From positions 68,175,411-68,239,410 of the forward strand of contig CM055092.1 of the NCBI GenBank assembly GCA_029204225.1: DNA of 64,000 nt, written 5' to 3'. A program made the position numbers and the translations under genes. The notes beneath the pieces were generated by a model. That model did no database searches. It was not told the DNA's origin and saw nothing but the letters and a program-made list of their open reading frames with translations. Numbering within the stretch: position 1 is the first letter of the stretch; the number at the start of each line of letters is the position of its first letter. Source of the stretch: Diphasiastrum complanatum. Lineage: Eukaryota > Streptophyta > Lycopodiopsida > Lycopodiales > Lycopodiaceae. Shown here piece after piece: positions 5,466-63,520 of this stretch.

Positions 5466-5979
5466 CCTTCCCCATTTATCAAAAGGCACCATTTGAATTC
5501 TATTTCCATGCTTAATGAGAAGGAATAAACTCTACCACATTTTCGAGAGAAGCATCTCATTTGCTACTCACTACTTGCTAATGCTTTTGATTGTGTTTTC
5601 CATTGATTTCTATTTAATGTTTATTGATTGTCTTAGTTAGTGTTTCTCCATTAGCAAGCATAAGGAGCATTTGAGCTAACCTCCACTCTCACTCTCCATC
5701 TCTGGTATTGAATATTGTTTGAACTTTTTGATTCATTCATAATCACTAATTTTGTTATTTATTCATTTCAACTTTTTGGTGATTTGCTTATTATATACTG
5801 TTGTGAATACTATGAGTGTCCTAATTTCTACTGACATTTTCACAAACATTATGTTTGCAATGCATATCAGCATTGGTTGTTGAAGACCATTTGGCCGATG
5901 AGATTTCAATTGGAAACTCACTAGGCTCTATCTTGACTTCTAAATCTATGAAATCCATGTTAAATAATAACAAAATGAA
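5466..5979. other. Spacer upstream of the transposase-like gene
   Basis: AT-rich, with stops in all frames. It may hold the promoter and 5' exon(s) of the gene that follows. No clear TATA box or first methionine could be chosen. Confidence 0.4.
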
Positions 5980-7818
5980 ATAAATTAAGGCTTCAGTTAC
6001 TGATAGCATTATGGATGAAGTTGGAAATATATTAGACACTACATTGCTTCAGGGGACATGTGACTTTTCTAGCATCAGTAGGGAAGCATATGCAACAATG
6101 TTTAAGATGATAAAGGAGGCATTTGCACAGGTAAATATTAAAAAGTTTCCAACCCCACGACCATTTTATATTTAAAAAAAAAAAGACATGTTAAACCATG
6201 GTGTGCAGACAATAGTTGGTAATCCATCTCATATCAATGAAGTGTATTGCTGGAAAGGAGAAAGTCTAGCATATAACAATTCCAACAATTTATTTATTGA
6301 CATTAATCAGTTATTAACATTCATCATAGATTTTTACGGTATTACAAATGAGAATGTCAATAATAAATTGATAGTTTTTCTCAAGTTAGATGAGTCTAAA
6401 ATTATAAAAGGACAAAAAATGGAAAGACTCAAACTCACAATCATGAATGGAGCACTTTCAAATTCAGAGGACTCAGAAGGCCTCAATTTCAGTGTTCAAT
6501 CAGAAAATGATATCTGGTGGTTGGCAGCATTTCAGGTATAGCAGTTCCTTCGCATAATAAATAGGGATAATCATTTGAATATGGATTTTATATCTAAAAT
6601 CTTCTCTGTGTTAATATTATGAGGCTAATCACGTTTTTGTATTCTCTTATAGGTGCGGAAGAAGACCATAACATTCTCTCATGGATATTTAATAGAACAT
6701 CATATCCTGCCACCATAAAAAAATCACACGGAGGGAGTTCCACTCAATATTCCTGGAATTGGCACTTTCAACATTGAATGGCATTTAGCAAGAGATCTGA
6801 AGACATTAAAATGTATGTTCAATGTATCTCATGGCGCCAACTCTAAACACCTTTGTTTGTACTACATGAAAACAGCAAAAGACATGACAAGGAGTACAGG
6901 AATATCAAAAGATCAAGAAAATCCTAATTGGAAACCTGTACTACCGATTACTCTACGAAATGTTCATATCTGTACATTGCATGCGGAGGTGCATATTATA
7001 GAAAAAATAATATATCTTCACATCTTGTTTGCATGGAATTCTGAGCCAGAGGCCTCTGCAAAGGAAGCTATTTCCATATTAGAGGATGTGTTGTCCAAAG
7101 CAGGCTTACATAAAGGCCACATTAAAATAAAAAAAGATGACAAGTTATTAGGTAAAACAGGAAATATTCCATGCAAGTTGAGCATTGGAGGATCTAAAGC
7201 TCGAAGATTTTTATCAAATTATTTTGGCAAACAATCTAAGGTTCAATACACGGTTTGGAAAGAAATTATTGCAGCAACTCAAGATTTTGAAGAAGAAGGT
7301 TCTACTCGTATACACAAAGTAGAAGTTTGAAAAAAAGTTAGACAACATGGTGAAATACTTGAGAAAAGATAAATTTTCAAATACTGATGTTCAAATGATA
7401 CAGAAAACAACCAATGAATTTGTGGATGCAGTTCAGAGTGCATGGGGTGTTGATCATATAACACATTATATGGTAAGATTTTGATTTTACACAACCATAG
7501 ACAAATATGTGCAATTAAATTAGATACTTTTGGTACTGATTTAGATTGTGTTTTTATGACATGCAGCACATATTACGACATCATTTGACATTCTTTGCAA
7601 GAAATAGTGGAAGTTTTAGCATATGGTCATCGCAAGGAATGGAAAGAGCGGCATTTCATAAAAGTACACAACATGGCGGGACTAGCACAAAAAACAGCTA
7701 TATACTACAACTTTTCCAATGGTTTTACAGAAGAATCCAAATTCTTCATAATACAAAATCGACGGATTATAAAAAATTTCAAAAAGCATGCAAATCTATA
7801 CAAGCCAGTAGGCTATAG
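5980..7818 (+). pseudogene. Transposase-like multi-exon gene, unrecognised family, one in-frame stop
   Basis: Four exons are supported by consensus splice sites: about 5980-6130 (ends CAG|gtaaat), 6209-6535 (CAG|gtatag), 6653-7472 (ATG|gtaaga) and 7567-7818 (after gacatgcag), all joined in phase. Conserved-looking blocks are LKLDESKIIKGQKMERL, FSVQSENDIWWLAAFQ, GIGTFNIEWHLARDLKTLKC, LHAEVHIIEKIIYLH, and a C-terminal H-rich block with SFSIWSSQGMERAAFH and QHGG. From memory this style resembles uncharacterised transposase-type proteins of algae, seed-free plants and invertebrates; I cannot name the family. Defects: TAA at 6716-6718 in exon 3 and a frame slip near 7328. A CxYY replaces an expected CxxC near residue CLYYMK. 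It converges on the minus-strand gene ending at 7936. Confidence 0.55.
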
Positions 7819-7935: not shown

Positions 7936-9420
7936 TTATTTTCTTTCGTATGGATCCAATAGCTCATAGTTTTCATGCTTACTAAGATCAACGTAAGCAG
8001 TATACACTGCAAAATGAGATGATCTGAACATGGAATTCACTGGTCCATATCCTAAAATTTTAACCGCAATAGTTTTCTTTACAAAAATTATTTTATGCAC
8101 TTTATTAAAATTATATCCTCCAAGAAAATGAGACAGTGCCTTGATTGCCATAATCATAGTTTCACCATGTTGATGAAACTTTGAATGGGCAACACTTATT
8201 TCGTTATTCTTGAAAGACTTTACATAGTGCCCGAGTGCATGATCTCTTGAAAATTCTCCCGCAAAAGATCTTTGCCCTCCTCAACGAATTGCAAAATCAT
8301 CAAGGAAAATTGTTTCCTGAAATGATAAAAAACAAAGTAAGCTCCAGTATATAATCTGACATAAAAAATCTACTAATACTTGATAAGAGACAAAACTTAC
8401 GCATTCGACTTTGTCTTCTCTGATTACTGTCTCACCATCAATATTATGTCCACCTTTCGATGTCAATATTGTTGGTGAATAGACAATTGGCTGTGGAAAT
8501 CCAAATTGACTTTGGATTCTAAGAAACTCCTCCTCAGAAGGCAGATCATCTTCTTTGTTGCGCATTTCCTCCACAGCCATTTTCAAGCAATCTTTCCCTG
8601 AATAAAATTTATCGTTATGTACATCGTCAACACTAGGGAGAAGATCATTAGCATCAAATCAATAATATCCAGAAATTCATCAAGCTCTTTGCTCAAAATG
8701 CAAAGAGTCTCAGCTTCAGTGAAGTCAAAAAGATCCAATATTGTCAAAAAGGAATTATTATCTATATTATAAGTAGGCAAAGTGATCAAACATTTATCAG
8801 AAGGAGAAAGGGTGGTGGGTGTTCTAGGGCCTATAAAGGTAGAGCTATTTTGAGCAGGATCAAAATCAGAACAATCATCTAAATTAATACTCGTATCAAT
8901 AAAAAAAGGGTTTCTTTATCTACAATCTTTGACTTTTCAGACTTTGTACCACTAGAAGAAGTTGCTTTAGAAGTGGAGGACACAGAGTCCGAATCGTCAA
9001 AAATATTTAACAAAAGAAAAAAAAACAAAAGCAGATTGAAAATCAACAAATCTACATTTTTATTATGAATTGGGCACTCATCTACAGACTTGAAATCATT
9101 ATGTAACTTGGTAGACATTTTGTCAATCTTAGCTTTATAGATATGCTTGTCGAGTGCCACCAAGTCCTGATAATGAATCATGTCTTATTCTGAGACCTGA
9201 ATAATGGAGTACTGAACAGGGACTTACATCTGAGATATATCTCAGAAAATGCCTCCACACCAGGGCCCTCAGTTATAGAAGGTAGAATAAAAAGAAAAGG
9301 AGAAAAAAGAGATTTGAAATAGTCCAACCTATCAGTAATACCAAATTCATTAAAAAAAAAAAACCAAACTGGATTCAAAATTAGACATTTTAAACAAAAA
9401 TAACAGAACTGAAGTTTCAA
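7936..9420 (-). pseudogene. Unrecognised acidic multi-exon gene, divergent partner of the H3-Ulp1 gene
   Basis: Reading right to left, a start codon at about 9391 (MSNFESSL) opens a serine- and acid-rich protein (DDSDSVSSTSKATSSSG near 8970; FTEAETLCILSKELDEFLDI near 8700). It continues through an exon at 8586-8401 (EEMRNKEDDLPSEEEFLRIQ, ending TGC|gtaagt) and a last exon at 8316-7936 (SFAGEFSRDHALGHYVKSF, ending NYELLDPYERK). The last two exons join in phase across a consensus intron. I do not recognise the family. Disabling changes: slippage in a 12-A run at 9352-9363, frame shifts near 9180, 9030, 8900 and 8585, and TGA at 8283-8281. Conservation of long coding blocks beside so few lesions suggests recent decay. 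The 5' leader shares sequence with that of the divergent gene at 10847. Confidence 0.45.
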
Positions 9421-10515
9421 ATATCGCTCTCAGGCGCAAACACCAGGTCTGACAAGCAAGTCCAGGCAACGTGCGCTCGAAAGAGATAATGGAAGCTGGA
9501 GTATTGGATCCGAGCGCAAGAACAATGAGCAGGAAAGAAAAGAGATACGAAACGCACTTGAATGCGATACCGGAGGATGCAGTATCGAATCCAGACGCAT
9601 AATAGTCAACGAGATGTAATGAGAGCAAGCGGCGCGCTTGAAATCAATATCCGGCAAACCAATCATAAATTTGTGTGAAAATCTGAGCCAAAAAATACCT
9701 ATTTATATTAAAATTTTCGCAAGTGTGGAGAAGTGGCGAAGAAACATGTGTCGACATGTGATTGGCCCAAATAAATGCATCGTATCTTGAATGATTGATC
9801 TAACATCTGTCACGTGCGAGAATGACACGCATCGTCAAGGGATTCGCGCACGTGTCACAGCCCACGTGTCCTTATAATTTGGTCATCATTGTCAGTACGG
9901 ACATTCCACGTGGACTAATCATCAAACGACACGTGTCCCAAAAATTCATTAAAAAAAAAACAAACTGGATTCAAAATTAGACATTTTAAACAATGATATC
10001 ACTCTCAGGCGCAAACCCCTGGACCGACAACCACGTCCAATCAACGAGCGCTTTGAAGTTGGAGTATTGGATCCGAGCGCAAAAACAACGACCAGAAAAG
10101 AAAAGGTATGCAAGACGCACTTGAATGCGATACCATACGATGCAGTATCGGATCCAGGCGCATAATAGCCAACGAGTTGTAATGAGAGCAAGCGGCGCGC
10201 TTGAAATTGATATCCGGCAAAGCAATCGTGAATTTGCGTGAGAATCCGTGCCAAAAAGATCTATTTATAAAAATTATTTCGCATGCGTGGAAAAGTAGCG
10301 AAGGAACACATGTTGACTTTTGATTGGCAAAATAAATGCGCCGTACCTAAAAGGATAGATCTGACATCTGTCTCGTCTGAAAATGACACGCGTCGATCAG
10401 GGATTCGCGCACGTGTCTCAGCCCACGTGGCCTCATAATTGGTATATCATAATCAGTATGGACATTCCACGTGGTCTAATCATCTGACAACACGTGTCTC
10501 GGCCATCTTTTCACA
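9345..10515. repeat. Tandem duplication (2 x ~600 bp) of a G-box-rich divergent promoter/leader
   Basis: 9345-9944 and 9945-10515 align along their length, sharing AACTGGATTCAAAATTAGAC, CACTTGAATGCGATACC, GAGAGCAAGCGGCGCGCTTG and ATTCGCGCACGTGTC, with an estimated 80-85% identity by eye. Each unit ends with several CACGTG cores (GCGCACGTGTC, GCCCACGTG, TTCCACGTGG, CACGTGTC), the plant G-box bound by bZIP and bHLH factors. Each also has a minus-strand TATAAATAG (9698-9707; 10261-10269). The left unit overlaps the first codons of the minus-strand gene, so the right unit is an extra copy of leader plus promoter. Confidence 0.8.
9698..9707 (-). promoter_or_regulatory. TATA box of the minus-strand partner gene
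   Basis: TATAAATAGG on the minus strand lies about 300 bp upstream of the proposed start at 9391. Upstream of it (higher coordinates) is a cluster of CACGTG cores. An equivalent box is present in the second promoter copy at 10261-10269. Confidence 0.5.
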
Positions 10516-10530
10516 CGTGCAAAAATTTCG

Positions 10531-10540
10531 TATATATAAG
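10531..10540 (+). promoter_or_regulatory. TATA box of the H3-Ulp1 fusion gene
   Basis: TATATATAAG lies about 310 bp upstream of the start codon at 10847 and just after a run of CACGTG motifs. The intervening leader contains no upstream ATG in a long frame and repeats GATATCG/CTCAAGCGCGC words that also occur, inverted, in the leader of the minus-strand gene. Confidence 0.6.
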
Positions 10541-10846
10541 CCCTCAAAATTTTCATTTTTTTTCACAAAATTCTCGCTTTTAGCTCCCGATATCGCTCTC
10601 AAGCGCGCTCTTTCATCCTTCAGGCTTCCGCTCTCTCATAGTGCGCTTGAGTCCGATACCGCCTGCTGTGCGATATCGCTTTTGAGCGCACATCTCTTTT
10701 CTGCGTATAATCTCTGTAGATCTTGTGCTCGAAACCGATATTCAGTGCTGGTATCGATCTCAAGCTCCCTTTCGTCGCAAATTTTTTCGTTTTGATCCAC
10801 TTTTGTTTATTTCAAACTTCTTTTTGTTAATTTTTTTCTTCCGAGA

Positions 10847-12650
10847 ATGATGGCCAGGATTAAATCCACTGCCCGTGCCATCACCACTGTACAGCCATCT
10901 CATTCTCGTGTTCCCCCTGGTACTGGCCGTAGGCATGGCAGGAAGCAGGTCTGGCTTACGGAGATCAGAAAACTCCAGAAATCAACTGAATTGTTGATCC
11001 CCAGAGCTCCTTTCGGCCGATCTGTCCGAAATGTCACTCTATCACTTGGGCTTGATGTTCGTTTTGTCGTGACAGCCATGCAGGCTTTGCAAGGTGCTAC
11101 AGAAGATTTTTTGTCCCAATTTTTTGAGGATACTTGTCTTTTGGCAGTGCATGGTAAGCGTGTCACCATCATGCCAAAGGAATTCGTCATTCTCAAAAGG
11201 CTTCGGGACAGATATTTTGGTCTGCATGTAGATAATGCCATCACCTCCAGAAACCTACCTCTGGATAGAACCGACGTGCCTACTACCTCTAGGAGGAAGA
11301 GAAAGTAGGTTGTCCCCAAGAAGGCTGGATCTCGAAGGCTAGCTGCTTCCCTTCCTCCTAGACGTATCCCTGCCAAAAGACCTCGTGTCATCCTAAGCTC
11401 TGAGTCAGATGCTGGAGAATCTAACTCAGATCGAGAATCTTCACCCAGTCCTCCTCCGGTTATTCGTCCAGCTCCTCAACAGGTTTCATCACCAAAATTG
11501 TTGATTACCCAAGAGGAGCTAGACAAAATAACAAAAAAATCTGTAAATATTGTTTCCACTTCTCTTTCTACCCCTCCTGTACATAATTTTTTTGTGAGAA
11601 TTCCATACGATCCAGCCCAGGTTTTTTTTTATTCTGACCATTATAATCAATACGAGACCTACCTAGCTAACAAAATTGATCTTCTCGACAACTTTTTTGA
11701 TTTTTTCCTTCCAGATACACGTAGAAGCTTTAGATTAGGTCCTAGATTTTGTGCCGAGCTTAAAGATAAGACCTCAAAATTTTCAGATGCAATAGTAGAG
11801 GCCGGTGTTTCATTTTTGCATAATAGTATTAGTTTCGATTCCCATGGTACAGTTTTTGTTGTTCCATTTTTCATGGGAGCGGTAAAGGCGAAAGAAGCCA
11901 ATTTTGAGAAGACTGTCTATTTTATCGAGTGCAGTCCTATGGCAAAATTCTATTTGATTCCATATGAAAATAAGTAAGGATTGCTCTTTTGTTTTTGTTG
12001 CTTTATTCTGGACTATTGCATGCCTCATTGCGTTAATAAGAATGGAACTTTTTTATAAATATAAATTTATCAATATTTGTATCTTGGTTGTTGCAGTCGG
12101 CATTGGAGCCTAAACATTCTTTTTGTAAAGATAAATGAGGGAGTATCAAATTTTCTATGTGTAAATTAAACTCAACTGCAAATACACATAGAGAATTTGA
12201 TTCTCTACTTCATGATGTCGTCCGGGAAATACCGACAACGGCAACTTCAATTGGAGATATAACCATCAAATCTCTGAAGGTATATTCAATTTATCTCTGA
12301 TATGCATGTATTCATTTTCTTAAATCAAATGTATCGTCATAGCATAAATAAAATTTCTATCATAATATTACTAATTTTCGTTCTCTATATGCAGTGTGTA
12401 CAGCAGAATGACGCTTTTAGTTGTGCATGGTTCATCCTATACAATATGAAGCTATTTTTTGAATGGTATAATTTACAAACGGATGTAGATATTGAAAAGG
12501 TAATATTCTATTCATTTGTAGTTCATTTCATTCTGCATTCTATTTTTCCATCTGATCTTTTGTCCCAACCTTCATCCATAAGTTCAACCAATAGCAGAAA
12601 GGCAGGCCTCGTCAACCAATAGCATTTCCACATGCTGCTCGACGAAACAG
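10847..12650 (+). pseudogene. Divergent histone H3-like domain fused to a Ulp1/SENP-like (C48) protease domain
   Basis: Exon 1 (10847-11973) starts MMARIKSTARAITT, echoing the H3 tail (A1, R2, K4 and R8 kept, K9 replaced by Ala). After a shortened tail it gives an H3 fold: EIRKLQKSTELLI, PFGRSVRN, LDVRF, ALQGATEDFLSQFFEDT and HGKRVTIMPKEF. Loop 1 has canonical rather than CENH3 length. An in-frame TAG (11306-11308) follows a basic RRKRK; the same frame stays open to 11977 through a PAKRPR basic patch, an acidic SESDAGES segment and a globular region. Exons 2-3 (12097-12279, 12395-12499) supply RHWSLNI (Ulp1 His) and VQQNDAFSCAWFIL (Ulp1 Gln/Cys motif; usual DCG is SCA). The Asp is uncertain (KLNST, or the D of EFDSL). 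There is a frame slip near 12150. A last exon from 12595 is tentative. Likely nuclear. Either a recently decayed gene or one using readthrough. Confidence 0.75.
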
Positions 12651-12792
12651 CAATATATGTAAAAAGTCTTTATTTTATTTATATTTGGAAAATTCTACGT
12701 TATGTAGAACCCCGAAGCTAAGGTTTCAATTGGTCCACATGGCAACGAAAATAAGAAAAAAAATAAAAAAGCATCTTTTTCAAAGGCCCTCG

Positions 12793-13110
12793 TCAGGCTC
12801 TAAGTTTTTCTAATGCTTGATCTCTCTTCTTCTTGTAGCAATCACTTGCAAAGTGTCCTTTGATGCCACAATAGAAGCACTTGAGCTTTGATCTATCCTT
12901 CTTTTTGCCAGTTGAAGAAGCATCCACTTGATCTTGCCCTTTAGACCACTTACTTTTGGTTTTGCCCTTGAATTTGTCCTTTGTGAACATAGCATCCTCT
13001 TGAAGTGTCGATGTAGATCCACTTCTTGCTCAAAGCCTATATTCCTCATTGATCAAGATATCTTGAAGATCCTTGATCTCCCTCTTGAATTGGTAGAGTG
13101 TGAAGATCTC
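12793..13110 (-). pseudogene. Copia gag fragment with CCHC zinc knuckle
   Basis: The minus strand encodes a basic linker (TKDKFKGKTKSKWSKGQ) and the knuckle CFYCGIKGHFASDC, preceded by DLQDILINEEYR. Gag should lie upstream of integrase, yet here it follows the integrase of the adjacent copia. It is therefore a fragment of another copy joined at about 13110. Confidence 0.75.
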
Positions 13111-14472
13111 ATGGCCTTTAGCTTTCTTCAATCCAAGAAACGTAGATTTATCGAACTTCACGTCTCTACTCGTTATCACCTTCTTTGAGGTTGGGTTGTA
13201 GAGCCTGTAGATCTATGATCCATTCGAGTATCCGACCATGGTTGTTTGCTCCTACTTTTCGTTGAGCTTGCTTCTTTTTTCTTTGAGAATGTGCATGTTG
13301 CACATCCGAACACACGTACATACGACAGATCAGGCTTTTTACTTGTCCACATTTCATACGGTGTCTTGCTTTCCAAGGTTGTTGTTGTTGATCTATTCTG
13401 CAACTGTACAGTTGCAGCTATTGCCTCAGCCCAAAATTGACTTGGCAATTGAGCCTGTGCCATCATGCATCTGGATCCTTCAACAAGCATCATGTTTCTT
13501 TGTTCTGCAACACCATTGTACTATGGTGTATATGCAGGAGTGAACTGATGCTCTATTCCTTGTTCTTGACAGAAGTCTGAGAACTCCTTGCTCTTGTACT
13601 CACCACCATTGTCAGACCTGATGGTCTGCACTTTCTTAGAAGTGTGTCTCTTTGTAAATGCCATGAACTTCTTGAAAGAGTCAAACACTTCAGATTTCTT
13701 TCTTAGATAGTAGATCGTTGTCATCCGGATGTAATCATCGACGAATGTTAGAAAGTACCTCGATCTTGAGAGAGAATCTACTTTCATTGATCCGCAGACA
13801 TCTGAATGGATGAGCTCAAGGACTTCTTTGGCTCTTCTTCCCTCATATACAAAAGGAATTCGATGTTATTTTCCCTTCTAACAGGCTTTACAGAAGTCGA
13901 TGTCGGGTCAAGATATCTTCAGACCTGTGACTATGTCTTTCCTGCTCATGTCGTAGAGGCTTCTCATGTTCAGATGGTACATTCTTCTGTGCCAGAGTTG
14001 ATCTTCGTTTATGCATTAAGTATGATATCATAGCTGCTGATAATCTTTGCCTAGTACAGGTTACTTTCTCTTGACCCAACAATCAGCAACTTGTTTGATT
14101 TTTGCTCGATCATCCGGCATGTATTGCCATCAAACAGGACTCGAATTCCGAGATCTACCGTCTTCGAGACTGATAGAAGGTCTCTTCTCAGTGAGAGTAC
14201 ATAGAGTGCTCTTGGCAGCTTTGCTTGTCTCGACAATGTACGTAGCTGTAGGGATCCGATGCCTTTGACATCATGTCGGCTCTCGTCCCCTAGTATCACT
14301 GCTCTTGATTTGTCGAGACATTTTTGTTGTAGGTGATGTGTGAAATTGCTCCTGAGTCGATGACTACATTGTAGTCATGATGTGTGTAGTTGTCGAAGCC
14401 TCATCGAATATCATGAAGGCTTCATCGCTCCTATCCGTATCCTTCGACGATTCTGCAATATTGGCCTTTTCA
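13110..14472 (-). pseudogene. Copia protease-integrase segment (3' part of an interrupted element)
   Basis: From 14472 leftwards the minus strand encodes a protease VIDSGAISHIT motif, an ILGDESRHDVKGIGS core, the pre-integrase region, integrase (TFVDDYIRMTTIYYL, IRSDNGGEYKSKEF, EHQFTPAYTP) and SRDVKFDKSTFLGL after the core. Several stops and frame changes are present (for example near 13176 and 13520). Its gag lies at 21693-22110; the two were separated by insertion of the gag-only LTR element at 14478-21687. Confidence 0.8.
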
Positions 14473-14477
14473 GTCTT

Positions 14478-15616
14478 TGTTGGCTGATTCTGATGAATCC
14501 CCAAGGTACTCGGACAGAGCAACTCAAGAGCACCGCTCACCTTAGACCGAGGAGGTCTCTGAGAAGACGAGACTAATGAAGACTGAGAGTCGAGTATGAG
14601 AGCCGAGAAATGCTAGTTAGTAATAACAAGCAATAATTGTGTAAGCCTCATGGTGAATCCCGGAAGATGGAATGACCATGTAGGAACTAGTATTTCTAAG
14701 CAAATGTAATAAATGCAAGTAGACCCCTCTTAAATAAATTAGAGTGAGCCACCTTTTGATGCCACTTGTAATTTGTGAAGTGTGGAAATTCCACTAGGAT
14801 GCCACCTAAGGAGCTCTCTTGCTTATTTAAGATACTCCCTCTTTGTGAAGAGGAGCTTTTTGCATTGTATCTACTCCATGCCTAATAAGAAGATTTTCCA
14901 TGAGTTTGATGCTACACTAAGCTGCTTGATCATGATGGTTTTCTTGAGTGATGCCCCTATGATCATGCCCTTCCATTCATATTGTGTGTGGTTGTGGATT
15001 TAGAGTGGATTAGTTTTCTTGCTTTCCTAGTTGTGGAGTAGATTTCATGTTTTCTTGTGGATTAATGTAGGAGCCGGCATTCAAGTAAACTAAATAGGCT
15101 AGAAATGTGGCATAAATCTTGCATATTCTCTAACATTCTAGTTCTTGATGTTCTTGGGATGTCCAAGAATCAAAAGGCTGGTTAGTTTCTTGATTCTTGG
15201 ACTTCTAACATGCTGTAGATTAGTTTTTGTTTCTTGTTTTGTCAATTTATGCAAGTAAAGTAGTGTAGGATCTGATTTTAGTTCATTTTGCAATGATCCG
15301 TCCTAGCATTCTGTTTTTAAGTGCCATAATAATGCCCAACCGTGTTTCAAGAAGAGCTGTTTTTGGGCATTCTTGGTGTGCTTGCATGGTAGAATGATTG
15401 CAAATGATTTCAAGAGTTCAAGAGTGTTCGAAATCTGAGTATTCATGACAGGTTGAACCATACTACAACCCCGAGAATCTGCTGCATGATTTGGGCATTG
15501 AACCAAATAGAAATGACCAAGAACATGCCCAACTAACAACCAAAATGGAGGTAGCATAAACTGTAACAAGAAGCAAACAAGCAAAACTACTAGACAAACA
15601 GAGGAATCGGTAAATA
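14478..15616 (+). repeat. 5' LTR of the gag-only element
   Basis: 1139 bp, colinear with 20558-21687. It differs from the other LTR by many substitutions and small indels (for example a roughly 25-bp gap near 14770 and extra bases near 15180), so the insertion is not recent. Confidence 0.9.
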
Positions 15617-20557: not shown

Positions 20558-21687
20558 TGTTGGCTGATTCTGATGAATTCCCAAGATACTCGGACAGAGC
20601 AACTCAAGAGCACCTCTCACCTTAGATCGAGGAGGTCTCTGAGAAGATGAGACTAATGAAGACTGAGAGCCAAGTATGAAGGCCTAGAAATGCTAGTTAG
20701 TAATAACAAGCAATAACTGTGTAAGCCTCATGGTGAATCTCGGAAGATGGAATGACCATGTAGGAACTAGTATTTCTAAGCAAATGTAATAAATGCAAGT
20801 AGACCCCTCTTAAAGAAAGTAGAGTGAGCCGCCTTTTGATGGTGACCTCTAGTGGAGAGCAATATTCCACTTGTAATTTGTGAAATGTGAAAATTCCACT
20901 AGGATGTCACCTAAGGAGCTCTCTTGCTTATTTAAGAGACTCCCTCTTTGTGAAGAGGAGCTTTTTGCATTGTATCTACTCCATGCTTAATAAGAAGATT
21001 TCCCATGAGTTTGATGCTACACTAAGCTCCTTGATCATGATGGTTTTCTTGAGTGATGCCCCTATGATCATGCCCTTCCATTCATATTGTGTGTGGTTGT
21101 GGATTTAGAGTGGATTAGTTTTCTTGCTTTCCTAGTTGTGGATTAGATTTCATGTTTTCTTGTGGATTAATGTAGGAGTCGGCATTCAAGTAAACTAAAT
21201 AGGCTAGAAATGTGGCATAAATCTTGCAATATTTTTTAACATTCTAGTTCTTGATGTTCTTGGGATGTCCAAGAATCAAAAGGCTAACATGCTGTAGATT
21301 AGTTTTTGTTTCTTGTTTTGTCAATTTATGCAAGTAAAGTAGTGTAGGATCTGATTTTAGTTCATTTTGCAATGATCTGTTCTAGCATTCTGTTTTTAAG
21401 TGCCATAATAATGCCCAACCGTGTTTCAAACAGAGTTGTTTTTGGGCATTCTTGGTGTTCTTGCATGGTAGAATGATTGCAAGTGATTTCAAGAGTGTTC
21501 GAAATCTGAGTATTCATGACAGGTTGAACCATACTACAACCCCGAGAATCTGCTGCATGATCTGGGCATTGAACCAAATAGAAATGACCAAGAACATGCC
21601 CAGCTAACAACCAAAATGGAGGTAGCATAAACTGTAACAAGAAGCAAACAAGCAGAACTAATAGACAGACAGAGGAATCGGTAAACA
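20558..21687 (+). repeat. 3' LTR of the gag-only element
   Basis: 1130 bp, TGTTGG...TAAACA, preceded by a purine tract and followed by the GTCTT target duplication at 21688-21692. Confidence 0.9.

Positions 21688-40202: not shown

Positions 40203-63520
<23,318 letters not shown>

Follow-up and report, generated by a model that had tools for sequence, protein, structure and literature searches.

The window, a 64,000-nucleotide stretch of Diphasiastrum complanatum DNA, contains the remains of a gene, here called gene C, whose first exon (10847..11973, + strand) encodes an H3-like domain, a basic linker and the N-terminal part of a C48-like domain. ATGs at 10847 and 10850 provide the start, the H3-like stretch ends at 11305 and an in-frame TAG stands at 11306–11308, after which the frame is open up to a donor at 11974. 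Exon 2 (12097..12279, +), a homologue of exon 2 in the sister copy L037, contains RHWSL (the catalytic His region) and KLNSTANTH. Exon 3 (12395..12499, +), which at 105 nt is as long as its L037 counterpart, contains CVQQNDAFSCAWF, with the Gln and Cys of the protease-like site. GT donors stand at 11974, 12280 and 12500, and the first two introns end with AG at 12096 and 12394. A putative last exon read from the sequence (12598..12662, +) is uncertain and has no clear resemblance to L037 exon 4; a fourth exon of the L037 type is not recognizable in the window before foreign repeat DNA begins at about 12613. An earlier note on this DNA described a single frame with one TAG running across consensus introns. 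The frame, the TAG and the GT/AG introns are as described there, but the frame is broken a second time within exon 2, with HW... in one frame and KLNSTANTH... in another. The locus holds a decayed member of a repeat family, and the fused protein cannot come from the window copy in its present state.

Several other repeats lie in the window. The repeat DNA at 12613–12815 matches the locus L036, and Copia-like coding remains were seen by eye at 12820–14480 on the − strand. Direct repeats at 14478–15614 and 20558–21685 (91% identical) look like long terminal repeats, while those at 57998–58721 and 61059–61783 (99.9% identity) and at 50674–51105 and 55120–55552 (97% identity) are probably, as a guess, the ends of young retrotransposons.

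The H3 fold in the window (10850–11305) matches the Pfam Histone family PF00125 with E = 5.6e-25 and 88.4 bits (cut-off 26.4), as the earlier note had anticipated. The C48 profile PF02902 gives no match to the window's exon-1 read-through part taken alone; the region 11633–12499, which includes the protease-like motifs RHWSL and VQQNDAFSC, aligns with the C48 half of L037 at 24% identity (tblastn, E 8.5e-16, one gapped alignment). In L037 gene C comprises four exons separated by GT...AG introns and is stop-free over 470 amino acids. L047 is also open over four exons, these two being the open copies among 15 family-1 (sister family) copies examined; the other 13 are damaged or were not cleanly mapped. 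The L037 protein matches both PF00125 (E 1e-27) and PF02902 (E 1.1e-10, 42.2 bits, about twice the cut-off of 20.7). The H3–Ulp1 fusion that had been claimed from the window is thus found in an open sister copy that passes both Pfam cut-offs, and the C48 assignment holds for L037 and fails for the window's exon-1 piece alone.

Among solved structures, the second half of L037 matches Ulp1-like proteases weakly (E 0.0011 and 0.0015). In an alignment of L037 with yeast Ulp1 (1euv), His, Gln and Cys fall on His, Gln and Cys, residues which we take to be catalytic in the yeast enzyme. No clear Asp is present in L037 at the place aligned with the catalytic Asp of Ulp1, and an Asn in the KMNST/KLNST motif lies nearby. 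Open copies of gene C encode a single protein made up of an H3-like tail and histone fold, a basic, Pro-rich linker and a Ulp1-like (C48) cysteine protease domain.

The continuity of the fusion was examined in the 1.74 Gb genome with window exon 1 as the query (375 residues, the TAG treated as a residue), and 109 copies, the window included, were scored from 10,419 candidates. A continuous same-frame match crosses the H3-to-protease junction in 107 of these 109 copies, the window among them, and covers at least residues 71–324 of the 375 in all 107; in the remaining two it is split by a frame change. Ten of the 107 are stop-free, five of them over all 375 residues. Because the match beyond the junction stays in one frame in nearly all scored copies, the TAG marks the window copy and not the end of the gene; homologues ending at the TAG, which had been named beforehand as one case against the fusion, did not occur. 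The window copy, which alone gives no C48 match, could be put down to chance motifs or an assembly join, but this explanation is refuted by the 107 continuous copies and is further opposed by the E-values, the copy number and the conserved introns, so that it is scarcely credible.

A Histone profile search of the genome returned 153 matches from the best 150 of 6,325 candidates. The top 13 are at the level of H3 itself (E about 1e-45), and the six that were translated are all ordinary H3; the remaining listed matches have E-values of 1.6e-28 to 2.3e-20. Since only the best candidates were scored in each search, the candidate totals are not copy counts, and some copies on small contigs resemble duplicates of chromosomal copies. 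Twenty stretches drawn from the 153 matches comprise 15 of family 1, four of a second family (family 2) and one, L050, left unassigned.

Upstream of gene C in the window, broken pieces of a transposase-like gene, gene A (5846..7794, +), carry the motifs KLDES, LARDLKTLKC, HICTLHAEV and SSQGME. The pieces, at 5846–6538, 6619–6768, 6719–7075, 7079–7472 and 7561–7794, are 53–71% identical to those of sister copies, apart from one short piece at 39% (tblastn). Three copies of gene A align with the common motifs KLDE, LA.DLKTLKC, VH.CT.H.E and QGME, which in our view resemble DDE transposases with a zinc-binding insert, presumably such as RAG1/Transib and CACTA. Searches with gene A gave nothing above cut-off in Pfam (one weak sub-cut-off match to BLYB), nothing in NCBIfam, one PDB chain at E 0.28 and one PHROGs family at E 0.16, none of them meaningful; with no family match, the transposase nature of gene A rests on its motifs and position. 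Scans of viral contigs gave no viral relatives of gene A or of the H3 part. Between genes A and C, broken pieces of a conserved protein without a Pfam match, gene B (7969..9357, − strand), resemble gene B of L033, with 27–42% identity over 8524–9357 (tblastn) and 45–47% over 7969–8340 (tblastx).

The same association recurs at other loci. C48 follows H3 at 14 of the 15 family-1 loci, gene A is found upstream on the same strand at ten and gene B at 11; absence of gene A or B here means little, as only about 4 kb upstream was covered. An exception is L042, in which gene A lies downstream on the opposite strand beside an inverted terminus. For the window subfamily, the best 150 of 11,285 gene A places were paired with the best 150 of 4,819 protease-part places: in all 18 pairs within 10 kb, gene A is on the same strand and upstream by 1.3–6.6 kb, the other three arrangements numbering zero. 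These 18 include the window's own pair, and some are probably assembly or segmental duplicates.

The family-1 terminus, CAYTAGAGGAGTTCTCAATATCAAAAAGAC, has 2,072 matches in the genome at up to two mismatches, and the reversed control has none. Among 100 listed exact places per family, adjacent termini within 12 kb face each other in 12 cases, point outward in none and have the same direction in five. Three facing pairs, 5.4, 8.1 and 9.4 kb apart, have the H3-side sequence at one end and about 35 bp common to both ends; only the ends were read, and no single family-1 element was read over its full length. Of ten inspected 3' ends, eight have CATTAG and two CACTAG, to be set beside the CACTA...TAGTG ends of CACTA (EnSpm) transposons. 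Matching 3-bp flanks (TCA) occur in one of four family-1 elements and not in the family-2 element L045, so that these five elements gave no consistent target-site duplication. For the element in the window no 5' end was located: the family-1 terminus has no match there, and the DNA upstream is decayed or too diverged. The locus belongs to an inverted-repeat transposon with genes A, B (on the opposite strand) and C; the mobile-element setting that the earlier note had suggested is supported by the transposase-like gene, the inverted repeats and the high copy number. Taken with the domain matches, gene C is almost certainly a transposon gene encoding an H3–C48 fusion.

Gene C could alternatively be a variant histone of the host, or a transposon gene since domesticated, with the copies as its pseudogenes, which would account for some copies being open. 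This is very improbable given at least 109 dispersed copies accompanied by a same-strand transposase-like gene and common terminal repeats, and the canonical host H3 genes are separate.

Three known types of element were considered, and no superfamily is assigned. Membership of the hAT group is not supported, as gene A has no hAT Pfam match and no 8-bp duplication was seen by eye at five elements, and neither is a CACTA-type transposase, as the gene A pieces have no Transposase_21-type Pfam match. Nor is a MULE/VANDAL element with KIU, only Histone and C48 passing the Pfam cut-offs among the pieces of genes A, B and C and of a further gene, D, that were scanned.

The region directly upstream of gene C in the window (9400..10846, no strand assigned) contains two direct repeats about 560 bp apart and, in an array, words of the ACACGTGTC and CGATATCGC types; the direct repeats D1–D5 upstream of the gene have spacings of 561–596. 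The 7-mers ACACGTG/CACGTGTC and CGATATC/ATATCGC are in excess here relative to the rest of the window, and CACGTGTC and ATATCGCA also rank among the most frequent words of the region that precedes gene C in L037, L039 and L047, though not in L041. Such words could represent binding sites or plain promoter elements.

Family 2 (L040, L045, L048, L049 and close kin) encodes a long protein with the H3 fold as its last part. L015, also of this family, has an open frame of 417 amino acids, with a 412-residue version that starts with MARTKQTAR, the exact start of H3, and continues into Gln- and Pro-rich stretches. Inverted repeats of about 38 bp beginning CATTAG lie 9.0 kb apart in L045 and enclose both the H3 gene and a homologue of gene A; L040 is arranged likewise, and gene A was not seen in L049. 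A terminus separates H3 from gene A in L048, and this gene A therefore belongs to a neighbouring copy; it is 45% identical to gene A of family 1 and 42% identical to that of the window. The family-2 terminus has 1,868 matches in the genome, with none for the control. No C48 domain was found in L040, L045, L048 or L049 by tblastn with the C48 half of L037, and family-2 genes B and D have no C48 match, gene D being a 286-residue frame in L045 that is without a match. Inspection by eye showed a protein resembling gene B in L045 and in L048, whereas tblastn with family-1 gene B found none in this family; if this family-2 gene B is right, the order A–B–C would be common to both families, with B and C reversed. 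L018 (C13:7456604-7459897) contains an H3-like frame of yet another kind, the third, in which a MARTKQTAREPQ start lies upstream and the fold has diverged.

It is possible, if not quite probable, that these elements represent a large unnamed group of plant transposons whose core genes include an H3-type histone older than the split of the two families. Each lineage would then have remodelled the histone, either by fusing a protease to it or by separating the intact ARTKQTAR tail from the fold with a long Gln/Pro-rich insert, and the elements would assemble or modify the nucleosomes of their own copies, perhaps within centromere-like blocks.

The nearest solved structures to the window fold are H3 chains (E about 5e-22); below the cut-off, weaker Pfam matches are to CENP-T_C (window and L037) and CENP-S (L037). 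The window fold is 49% identical to host H3 and 44% identical to both of the CENH3 proteins compared, AtHTR12 and human CENP-A. Loop 1, which is longer in CENH3, has one extra residue in L031 and L047 and no extension in the window or family 2. The H3 folds of the transposons form a weakly supported cluster (0.75) in a small tree that also included one mis-framed row, L037. Residues R49, R63, R69, R72, H113, R116, T118, D123 and R129 are taken here to be the H3–H3 and H4/DNA contact residues of H3. R69, H113, R116, T118 and R129 are conserved in the window, L047, L031 and three family-2 copies, and R49 and R63 are lost in all of these alike; R72 is replaced by Lys in family 2, and D123 by Glu in the window and by Asn in L047. 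With several pairing residues kept but R49 and R63 lost and D123 variable, binding of H4 by the transposon H3 fold appears plausible.

Comparisons between subfamilies (L031 versus L037, L041, L043 and L047, with L039 left out of the set) give dN/dS values of 0.15–0.22 for the H3 fold and 0.28–0.48 for the exon-1 part of C48, the four values for each not being independent since all share L031. Within the L037 type the values are scattered (0.47–2.15 for H3 and 0.56–1.81 for C48), and dS relative to the window is saturated for both domains. The pattern points to genes that are maintained during jumping and lost after insertion. It also bears on passive capture, in which a transposon would have picked up an H3 gene and a Ulp1 gene and multiplied them along with itself, neither having a role, in the way that fungal hAT elements carry H3. 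The majority of the copies examined here are broken, and the fungal hAT elements that took up H3 are reported as hundreds of mostly inactive copies (PMC6710886, PMC3538342). Passive capture is nevertheless weakened by the between-subfamily constraint on both halves (dN/dS < 0.5), by the existence of open four-exon copies and by the retention of an H3-fold gene in two families whose A genes are 42–45% identical, and is considered improbable.

A transposon-encoded H3–C48 fusion that counters silencing is the explanation we favour, and taken as a whole it is reasonably probable. In this scheme the H3 fold would pair with host H4 and so place the fusion protein in or beside the nucleosomes of the element, where the protease would strip silencing proteins of SUMO or a similar modifier. 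Copies of the element would thereby stay expressible. Such an anti-silencing role would be akin to that of VANC in Arabidopsis VANDAL elements, but aimed via the histone fold. As a specific proposal, a chromatin or anti-silencing function of the fusion protein is tentative and falls a little short of probable.

The distribution of the termini along contig C1 is uneven. The interval 64.95–66.70 Mb (1.7% of the contig) holds 28 of the 100 listed exact family-1 termini and five of the 37 listed family-2 C1 termini, and the interval 95–100 Mb (5% of the contig) holds 26 of the 100; the first block could represent a centromere or the product of local duplication. The fused protein might instead serve transposition itself, with the H3 fold guiding the complex to certain chromatin, such as a centromere-like block, and the protease trimming or deconjugating partners. 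The 28 and five listed termini in the first block would suit this role, and Ginger1 transposases are reported to include Ulp1 and OTU domains (PMC2836005). However, in the present elements the protease sits in a separate gene and not in gene A, the C1 cluster could reflect local duplication or relaxed selection, and the second interval contains the 26 further listed termini. A role in transposition is regarded as rather unlikely.

Parts of this arrangement have precedents. Fungal hAT transposons amplify an H3-like gene in Pyrenophora tritici-repentis (H3L) and Pseudocercospora fijiensis (PMC6710886, PMC3538342), and share with the present elements the form of an inverted-repeat DNA transposon that carries and amplifies an H3-like gene beside a transposase. 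The fungal genes are not described there as fused to a protease, and the P. fijiensis elements are reported to have 8-bp target duplications, whereas here C48 is fused, neither a hAT domain nor an 8-bp duplication was seen, and two diverged families possess H3-fold genes. VANC proteins are reported to remove silent marks from their own VANDAL copies, and some, the KIU genes, carry a Ulp1 domain (PMC13317346, PMC10398659). KIU resembles gene C as an accessory gene of a plant DNA transposon with a Ulp1 domain, but its Ulp1 is described as joined to a VANC-type protein and not to a histone, and gene A here has no MULE Pfam match. Ginger1 provides a protease of the same family on a DNA transposon, as a C-terminal Ulp1 or OTU domain (PMC2836005); there the protease is described as lying within the transposase, whereas gene C, separate from gene A, has it joined to H3. 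CACTA elements of Chenopodium are reported to have Peptidase_C48 in a second ORF and ends with the CACTA motif (PMC8978399), to be compared with the CATTAG and, less often, CACTAG ends of the present elements. The present elements differ in the lack of a Transposase_21 Pfam match and of a reliable 3-bp duplication; the word 'histone' is absent from the main text of that paper. Among the titles and abstract openings listed from the open-access literature, in several cases the top 10–20 of up to 208 papers, a scope outside which subscription papers and most preprints fall, no transposon histone, H3–Ulp1 or H3–C48 combination or histone-carrying plant transposon was found, fungal cases aside. Captured chromatin genes in transposons are thus known, and this fusion and arrangement were not found described.

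Known transposons carry Ulp1 and, in fungi, H3. A protein in which the two are joined, and which selection has apparently maintained in an abundant family, would allow a test of whether a histone serves a transposon to bring a SUMO-type protease to chromatin and thereby to evade silencing. The protein would also represent a naturally occurring H3 variant that carries its own enzyme. H3-like frames of these kinds number at least hundreds in this one genome, and perhaps thousands by the terminus counts, which bears on how H3 and CENH3 annotations are to be read.
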